A stretch of DNA of 64,000 nt from Chloroflexota bacterium (GTDB lineage: Bacteria; Chloroflexota; Dehalococcoidia; Lucifugimonadales; Lucifugimonadaceae), in the NCBI GenBank assembly GCA_002714425.1, contig PAXI01000002.1:8496-72495 (forward strand). The letters run 5' to 3'. This document shows positions 17,259-19,398 of the stretch, piece by piece; the stretch's first letter is position 1, and each line of letters starts with the position of its first letter. A model generated the notes under the pieces. That model was not told where the DNA came from. It saw only the letters and a program-made list of their open reading frames with translations, and did not search any database. Position numbers and translations under genes: made by a program.

Positions 17259-17699
17259 TTATTTTAAAATACCAAATTGTCTTTTCATTACCTGCAAGTT
17301 TACAAAAGTTTCTGTTCTTCTTACACCTTCTATTGCACCAATTTCAATTCTGATAAATCTTCCTAGAGCTTCAGGATTAGGTAATGTTACCCAAACAAAT
17401 ACGTCATATGTACCCGTGGTCATAGCGACCCATCTAGTATGGTCTAATTTTGCTACTTTATTTGCAGCTAACTCAACTTGATCAGGATCTATTTGTATGC
17501 CAATTAGCGCCTCTGATTCATATCCTAATTTTGTAGGATCAGGCAAAGCAACAACATTAATAATTTCATCATCGATTAATTTTTTTAGTCTTCTACGGAC
17601 AGTACCCTCGCTGACGCCAGATTCTCTAGCTATAAAAGCATTAGATGCCCTACCATCCTTTTCAAGTTGACTAATAATATTTCTGTCTAATTCATCCAT
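17259..17699 (-). CDS. Lrp/AsnC-family transcription regulator
   Basis: The 146-residue protein has an N-terminal winged helix-turn-helix (LDRNIISQLEKDGRASNAFIA, then SGVSEGTVRRRLKKL) and a C-terminal RAM ligand-binding domain (WVAMTTGTYDVFVWVTLPN). Members sense amino acids and form dimers to octamers. It is divergent from the A-type carrier gene across about 245 A+T-rich bases and lies 49 bases upstream of aspS on the same strand, so it may be cotranscribed with aspS. Its target is not evident. Confidence 0.9.
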   Translation of the reverse strand: MDELDRNIISQLEKDGRASNAFIARESGVSEGTVRRRLKKLIDDEIINVVALPDPTKLGYESEALIGIQIDPDQVELAANKVAKLDHTRWVAMTTGTYDVFVWVTLPNPEALGRFIRIEIGAIEGVRRTETFVNLQVMKRQFGILK

Positions 17700-17944: not shown

Positions 17945-18325
17945 ATGGTCACAAATAACAATATTATTACTTTTACAGATGCAGCTAAATCTAAAATTGA
18001 AGAAGTTTTGAAAGAGCAAGCAACTGAAAATCACTATTTAAGGATAGCAGTCAACAATAACCCAATGGGTGGAGTGGAATATGTTTTTGGTCTAGAAGAA
18101 AAACCAAACGATTTAGACAATATTATTGAAGAACCTGTAAGAACATTAATAGATAAGGAAAGTGCACCATTAGTTGAAGGTTCTAGTATTGATTTTGTAG
18201 AGGGATTTGAAAGGTCCGGCTTTGTAATATCAAATCCAAACTTCCAGCAAGAAGGCTGTGGATGTGGCAATGGCGGAGGCGGTTGTGGCAGCGGTGGCGG
18301 TGGTGGCGGTGGCTGCGGTCACTAA
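17945..18325 (+). CDS. HesB/IscA-like A-type Fe-S carrier homologue with Cys/Gly-rich tail
   Basis: The 126-residue product shows the A-type carrier fold: FTDAAKSKIEEVL, YLRIAV, a central strand pair and FVISNPNF. Normal members hold iron through three cysteines, one in the GGGCSG motif and two in a C-terminal CGCG. Here the first is replaced (VNNNPMGGVEY, Met41 at that place) while Cys105 and Cys107 remain in GCGCG and are followed by a glycine-run tail with Cys114 and Cys124 and a final His. The tail could take over cluster or metal binding; that is inference. A ferredoxin gene follows about 120 bases downstream, suggesting joint Fe-S function. Confidence 0.8.
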   Translation: MVTNNNIITFTDAAKSKIEEVLKEQATENHYLRIAVNNNPMGGVEYVFGLEEKPNDLDNIIEEPVRTLIDKESAPLVEGSSIDFVEGFERSGFVISNPNFQQEGCGCGNGGGGCGSGGGGGGGCGH

Positions 18326-18392: not shown

Positions 18393-18448
18393 ATAGTTTA
18401 TAATTGTAAATTAGATTAGAAAAAAATTAAATTTACTTGGAGGTAAAT

Positions 18449-18715
18449 TTGACGTTTATAATAGGTAAAGCATGTGTGGGAGTCATGGATGGAGCTTGTG
18501 TTGAGGTTTGTCCTGTAGACTGTATTTATTCTAAGCCTGGAGACACTCAATTATTCATAAATCCCGATGAATGCATTGATTGTGCTGCATGTGAACCAGT
18601 TTGCCCAGAAAATGCAATTACCTCAGAAGATGATGTCCCAGAAGATCAGCAAGAATTTATAAAATTAAATTATGAATATGACTACGATTCTTCTGAACCA
18701 GGTGCAAATGCATAA
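18449..18715 (+). CDS. Ferredoxin, 7Fe/8Fe type
   Basis: Small electron carrier of 88 residues. Two cysteine clusters are visible: CVGVMDGACVEVCPVDC with the spacing of a 3Fe-4S/4Fe-4S site, and CIDCAACEPVCP, a classic C-x2-C-x2-C-x3-CP site. The C-terminal tail is acidic. This arrangement matches FdxA-like ferredoxins of aerobic bacteria. A TTG twelve bases upstream is in frame, but GGAGG at 18439-18443 overlaps it and lies five bases before the TTG chosen here, so the later TTG is the likely start. Confidence 0.92.
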   Translation: MTFIIGKACVGVMDGACVEVCPVDCIYSKPGDTQLFINPDECIDCAACEPVCPENAITSEDDVPEDQQEFIKLNYEYDYDSSEPGANA

Positions 18716-18723
18716 AAATTATT

Positions 18724-19398
18724 ATGCAAAATGATTCAGATAAAATAATTTTAGATAATCCTAATATTTTTTGTACTCATTGTGGCGTTAAAAATAGCAA
18801 TGAAAATTACGGTTGTACTCGTTGCGGTGAAAAACTTATAAAAAAACTTGATGTTGAAAAAACTAGTCTTAATAAGATTGTTTGCAATAAATGTGAAAAA
18901 TTTGACTACGCGAATTCATTTTATTGTTGGTCTTGCGGCTGTGAATATTCATCTCAAAATAAAGAATTAATATCGCCCTCTTTATCCGAAGAGCCAAAAA
19001 TAAATGTAGTAAGTGAAAATTCAAATCAACCTATTCCTCCTGTATCTAAAACTAACAATTCTGGTGATAAAAAATCCGTTGTTCCAAAAGAGATAAAGGG
19101 ATGGAATTGGGCGGCATTTCTAATACCACCGCTTTGGGGTTTGTTCTCTGGAGTTCCATTGGCAATTCTAATGTTAGCTTTATATCTACCGATATTTTCT
19201 GATGGAATGAGAGTACTTGCACTAATTGGTTGTAGTTTATTTTTAGGCTTAAGAGGCAACGAACTTGCTTGGAGGGGGAAAAAGTGGAAATCGATTGAAC
19301 ATTTTAAGAATGTACAAAAAAAATGGCTCTCATGGGCTGTAGCATTGAATATATTATATATAATAATTATTCTTTATACCGGAAACCCATCTAATTAA
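18724..19398 (+). CDS. Double zinc-ribbon membrane protein
   Basis: The 224-residue protein starts with two zinc ribbons: CTHCG paired with CTRCG (about residues 17-34) and CNKC paired with CWSCG (about 54-72). A Ser/Pro-rich linker leads to a membrane domain (WNWAAFLIPPLWGLFSGVP, two hydrophobic segments near 140-175, and a last one near the C terminus), similar to DUF2628-type domains. Function unknown; the ribbons should face the cytosol. It begins eight bases after the ferredoxin stop and overlaps the oppositely oriented acetyltransferase gene by eight bases. Confidence 0.8.
   Translation: MQNDSDKIILDNPNIFCTHCGVKNSNENYGCTRCGEKLIKKLDVEKTSLNKIVCNKCEKFDYANSFYCWSCGCEYSSQNKELISPSLSEEPKINVVSENSNQPIPPVSKTNNSGDKKSVVPKEIKGWNWAAFLIPPLWGLFSGVPLAILMLALYLPIFSDGMRVLALIGCSLFLGLRGNELAWRGKKWKSIEHFKNVQKKWLSWAVALNILYIIIILYTGNPSN

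Follow-up and report, generated by a model that had tools for sequence, protein, structure and literature searches.

Three cysteines are predicted to serve as the cluster ligands of A-type carriers, and in IscA of T. elongatus the ligands are C37, C101 and C103 (PMC8593673). Another source calls the exact role of these carriers controversial (PMC10301553), and a paper on A-type evolution states of a chicken IscA1 copy that its Cys motif was lost (PMC7144353). In NfuA, as two sources describe it, an A-type domain without ligand Cys targets apo-proteins and another part of the protein holds the cluster (PMC8593673, PMC10301553). A further relevant system is SlyD, a folded domain whose unstructured, variable, His/Cys-rich C-terminal tail binds several Ni(II) (PMC7055735). 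Among the literature matches listed, which were covered at the level of titles and abstract beginnings and mostly exclude subscription papers, there was no account of an A-type carrier that lacks the first ligand cysteine (Cys1) and bears a Gly/Cys tail.

Such a protein is encoded in the window, i.e., the whole stretch of 64,000 nucleotides of Chloroflexota DNA that was analyzed. The gene and its parts are as follows:

17945 to 18325, forward strand: A-type protein of 126 amino acids without Cys1 and with a Cys/Gly tail (open reading frame, profiles, AlphaFold, Foldseek)
17945 to 18244, forward strand: predicted A-type (HesB/IscA) domain, residues 1-100, with zero Cys (Pfam match, TM-score)
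18065 to 18067, forward strand: ATG codon encoding Met41, in the Cys1 position (alignment to 2apn, codon reading)
18254 to 18322, forward strand: Cys/Gly tail, residues 104-126 (23 residues), predicted to be disordered (translation, AlphaFold, composition)

The open reading frame runs from an ATG start to a TAA stop, and its product is predicted to adopt the A-type (HesB/IscA) fold. Residues 8-108 match Pfam Fe-S_biosyn (PF01521) at 43.3 bits (cut-off 26.3), and the protein reaches 83.5 bits with NCBIfam TIGR00049 (cut-off 58.8); it is thus placed in the A-type carrier family by both models. It shares these family matches, the predicted fold and the C-terminal CGC with IscA, SufA and ErpA. Unlike them, it lacks the first of the three ligand Cys, carries a Gly/Cys arm with at least four Cys, and falls below every NCBIfam equivalog cut-off, i.e., those for ErpA (68.6 bits against 117), SufA (65.1 against 136.2) and IscA (44.6 against 150.6). 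In the AlphaFold model, the core lies mainly at pLDDT 70-90 and residues 103-126 lie below 50, so that the tail is predicted to be disordered. A Foldseek search with this model matched IscA (1r94/1s98), SufA and DsrR (2k4z), with an E-value of 2.0e-8 and a TM-score of 0.86 (normalized by target length) for IscA 1r94. DsrR, an A-type fold of solved structure that we take to lack the ligand cysteines, likewise has no in-domain Cys, whereas the window protein keeps CGC and has extra Cys. The A-type body is under strong purifying selection: comparisons with three same-genus copies gave dN/dS values of 0.008, 0.023 and 0.017, at dS values of 0.54, 1.44 and 1.00, the last two being near saturation.

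The preliminary description had recognized an A-type carrier that lost its first cysteine, kept CGC and gained a Cys/Gly tail with four Cys and a terminal His, and both the translation and the alignment to 2apn bear this out. The Cys in the GGGCSG motif of H. influenzae HI1723 (2apn) aligns with Met41, and the protein does not have the canonical set of a loop Cys plus a C-terminal CxC pair, of which it retains the CGC. Because C37 is a ligand of T. elongatus IscA together with C101 and C103, the loss affects a true ligand position. No fixed residue has taken its place; the Cys1 column of 109 ten-residue loops contains 10 residue types (H 41, N 31, Q 13, M 7, G 5, S 4, T 3, R 2, A 2 and E 1).

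Real as it is, this loss is not peculiar to one gene; it is an old trait of the bacterial order. An A-type match was found in all 40 genomes of a set comprising the window's own genome and 39 relatives, and reading the best match in each identified the Cys1-less form in 37, with only the canonical form in the remaining three (G015, G026 and G036). Order-wide, an A-type match was obtained in 144 of 147 genomes, and the best match reaches at least 78.7 bits in 129 of the 147, a count that rests on score and not on reading of the sequences; the next lower match scores 73.3 bits. Of the 15 genomes that match below 78.7 bits, one (G498) holds a contig-end fragment only. Sequences were read for 97 genomes of the order, and in 95 of them the Cys1 loop of this paralog contains no Cys; five further genomes of the order were read and have the canonical form only. 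Homologs with the same tail and the missing Cys, for which the preliminary description had proposed a search, are accordingly widespread, whether read directly in the 40-genome set or scored order-wide, and the loss of Cys1 in a single gene was rejected as an explanation. The Cys1-less, tailed A-type protein is an order-wide paralog of SAR202 Chloroflexota. The two remaining sequences among the 97 genomes, L295 (in G456) and L298 (in G414), combine the full Cys/Gly tail with a Cys that lies within a Cys1 loop expanded by Gly, and in both the loop grows the same kind of sequence as the tail.

A canonical A-type protein, whose presence elsewhere in the genome the preliminary description had asked about, does exist: it is encoded on another contig (G000:C9, L001) and reads KGGGCSG...CGCGTSFSV. 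Among the 37 genomes that have the Cys1-less form, 36 (the window's and 35 of the other 36) show a second match in the canonical range; the exception, G019, is 71% complete and has a single family match. Canonical copies were read in 22 genomes of the order, and those read have three Cys. Their surroundings also differ from those of the Cys1-less genes. A frame with the motif KGCxxGQE lies downstream on the same strand in 30 of 42 CGCGxSF rows (four of them repeats), and each of the 22 own-order genomes that were read has it; none of the 143 Cys1-less rows, counted with repeats, does. The one such gene tested against Pfam, beside L001, encodes a GCV_T-domain protein with this motif, which we take to be YgfZ/IBA57-like. 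On a third contig, the same genome carries SufB- and SufD-type genes and, between them, a SufC-like gene that was recognized by eye.

The tail of the window protein, GCGCGNGGGGCGSGGGGGGGCGH, contains Cys105, Cys107, Cys114 and Cys124 and ends in His126. For comparison, 143 distinct Cys1-less sequences of the main clade were collected from the order and the named loci; excluding 8 with unread tail stretches left 135, all picked for the absence of Cys in the Cys1 loop. At least four tail Cys are present in 133 of the 135, and the two exceptions, L039 and L294, have three and run off the contig end. Tail Cys are retained throughout a length range of 15-93 residues. A CxC occurs in every one of the 135 tails, and this arrangement is strongly enriched (302 observed against 120.7 ± 9.6 in 500 shuffles), whereas CC is avoided (8 against 124.5). 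No Fe-S motif of known geometry was found in the tail. A search of the genome for tail-like cassettes elsewhere with GGNTGYGSNTGYGGNGGN matched nothing, a pattern that would miss the window's own tail too; GGNGGNGGNTGYGGN matched twice in this gene and at two other places in the same genome, one within an unrelated frame of 458 residues and one in a frame of 22 residues. An assembly artifact was considered as the source of the tail and rejected, because Ca. Lucifugimonas marina JH1073, whose closed genome was obtained by PacBio sequencing (PMC10444878), has the same tail type (L042).

Two neighboring genes bear on the possible function of the protein:

18449 to 18715, forward strand: FdxA-like ferredoxin (FdxA_Actino, 98.4 bits, below the cut-off of 125)
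17259 to 17699, reverse strand: divergent Lrp/AsnC-type regulator (Pfam)

The ferredoxin, a 4Fe-4S protein and presumably of the seven-iron type by its Cys spacing, probably starts at the TTG at 18449, which follows GGAGG; the list of open reading frames starts it at the TTG at 18437. Directly after it, at 18724-19398 on the forward strand, lies a frame whose N-terminal Cys pattern resembles a double zinc ribbon (22.4 bits, below the Pfam cut-off of 27.3). Of the best 80 named loci, which are those that resemble the window most, 76 extend at least 600 bases downstream, and 55 of these have an FdxA-like ferredoxin next on the same strand; 75 extend at least 800 bases upstream, and 63 of these have a divergent AsnC-type gene on that side. 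The corresponding counts for Cys1-intact rows are 0 of 79 and 0 of 76. The preliminary description had seen in the ferredoxin a natural client, and this suggestion is weaker than it appears. In the 40-genome set, 23 members of the window's family could be evaluated, and the gene adjoins in 18 of them but in 0 of 13 members of the order's other families. Moreover, conservation of the ferredoxin and the regulator is partly plain synteny, because other nearby genes are conserved too: aspS-like ones in 61 of the 80 loci, BioY-like ones in 47 and trigger-factor-like ones in 43 (one gene from each group was checked with Pfam). A nitrite/sulfite reductase-type gene also lies downstream in 26 of the 80 loci and a chlorite-dismutase-family gene in 24 (one of each checked with Pfam). 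In the window, no Fur-box-like site was found at up to 3 mismatches from the consensus, and promoter-like sites were in no excess over shuffles.

The preliminary description had named tailed relatives with an intact first Cys as what would speak against it. Such relatives were found, both at the class level (L125, L127, L128, L129 and L194, from families f27, f51 and f72) and at the phylum level (L159), but their Gly-rich tails have three Cys and not at least four; a full tail combined with a loop Cys occurs in the Gly-expanded L295 and L298. Since these tailed sequences exist, the tail does not need the loss of Cys1. Four loci of the Cys1-intact, tailed kind were looked at, and in two of them (L234 in G096 and L237 in G068, both f51) a gene of the class-V aminotransferase family lies directly downstream. 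Cysteine desulfurases belong to this family. The class-level tailed rows with intact Cys1 fall together (support 90) with another Cys1-less set, which consists of L130, L131, L137 and L191 (support 100). In family f28, only one A-type match was found in each of the four genomes searched (86-91% complete), and it is the Cys1-less one (L214 in G133, L215 in G104, L216 in G159 and L218 in G045). The tree, built on an alignment of only 99 columns and with many open forks, implies three Cys1 changes with all 120 rows and two when the long rows L207 and L208 are left out; a single Cys1-less clade is not rejected (p-AU 0.495). Judging from the sequences, the tail probably arose first and the loss of Cys1 came second.

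This pattern suggests that the metal-holding part has been relocated from the domain to the arm. We tentatively favor, at close to an even chance, a division of labor analogous to that of NfuA, in which the A-type fold docks on clients and a flexible Cys arm carries an Fe-S cluster or iron. The fold, rid of its in-domain Cys, would dock on the assembly machinery and on apo-proteins; a labile Fe-S cluster (or iron) would be bound by at least four tail Cys, often paired as CxC on a Gly tether; and the arm would hand this cargo on, with the adjoining FdxA-like ferredoxin as one likely client in the window's family. We infer the binding of a cluster or iron, its transfer and the client from sequence features. 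Evidence for the arm as carrier comes from the predicted A-type fold, the purifying selection on its body and the tail Cys kept across all tail lengths, as well as from the enrichment of CxC, the avoidance of CC, the unfixed Cys1 column and the separate canonical paralog. The downstream FdxA, absent from Cys1-intact rows, the aminotransferase gene beside two of the four tailed Cys1-intact loci and the four f28 genomes with a Cys1-less protein only point the same way. The A-type domain of NfuA offers a precedent for targeting apo-proteins without ligand Cys (PMC8593673). The window protein shares with NfuA such a domain and a cluster-binding part presumed to lie elsewhere in the chain. Unlike NfuA, it has no Nfu domain, PF01521 being its only Pfam match, and ends instead in a disordered Cys/Gly tail; NCBIfam NfuA models match its A-type part only, far below their cut-offs.

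The main rival to this carrier role, which we regard as unlikely though worth serious attention, is that the protein is a metal buffer or metallochaperone whose SlyD- or metallothionein-like tail keeps Zn, Ni, Cu or Fe ions in store or supplies them, without any Fe-S cluster. Tail Cys vary in number (4-12 in complete tails) and in spacing, and this variation, like the lack of a fixed Fe-S motif, fits a buffer equally well. In addition, 95 of the 135 tails end in His and some contain His-rich segments (L023, L264 and L280), which point also to Ni, Zn or Cu. Like SlyD (PMC7055735), the window protein has a folded domain with a C-terminal tail that is disordered, variable and rich in metal ligands. 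It differs in having the A-type fold, no FKBP match in Pfam, few His, and Cys that are often in CxC; likeness to metallothionein would lie in CxC enrichment only. The fold, the ferredoxin neighbor and the aminotransferase gene beside two tailed relatives point instead to Fe-S work, the ferredoxin doing so for the window's family only and within general synteny, and no metal-specific transporter or regulator was recognized by eye in the 14 commonest neighbor groups.

Retention of the canonical site with a substitute ligand appears improbable. A cluster at the dimer interface would then sit on the CGC pair, with Cys1 replaced either by a tail Cys or by His/Asn in position 41. The first tail Cys is the 5th residue after NPN in 32 of the 135 tails and the 6th in 19, including that of the window, which is near its place in Cys1-intact sequences (5th in 64 of 71); moreover, it opens a CxC in 78 of the 135, and the Cys1 column most often contains His. 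On the other hand, 10 residue types occur in that column, 66 of the 135 have their first tail Cys at least 7 residues past NPN (NPN being unreadable in 18 more), and in 57 it begins no CxC.

The DNA of the tail has a G+C content of 71%, against 32% for the body and 31% for the window; 8 of its 16 Gly codons are GGC (11% in the window's genes), it contains weak tandem repeats of 9/18 bases, and tail length differs between copies with near-identical bodies. The tail grows and shrinks by repeat expansion, yet its cysteines are retained and spaced. A degenerate paralog without metal function, its tail a slippage-prone low-complexity sequence, would suit these traits, but is very improbable given the near-universal four or more Cys, the CxC and CC biases, the low dN/dS of the body, the order-wide presence and the same tail type in the JH1073 genome.

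SAR202 is a large group of ocean bacteria, and the window's family has a cultured member with a closed genome, Ca. Lucifugimonas marina. A complete migration of the ligand set from the fold to the disordered arm, with the tail first, the loss of Cys1 next and, in f28, the arm form as the sole A-type carrier, is possible but doubtful. A fold that is kept while one ligand is dropped and at least four Cys are placed on a flexible arm constitutes a natural experiment that sets the carrying part of an A-type protein against its targeting part, and the genomes with the Cys1-less form only make this question directly testable.
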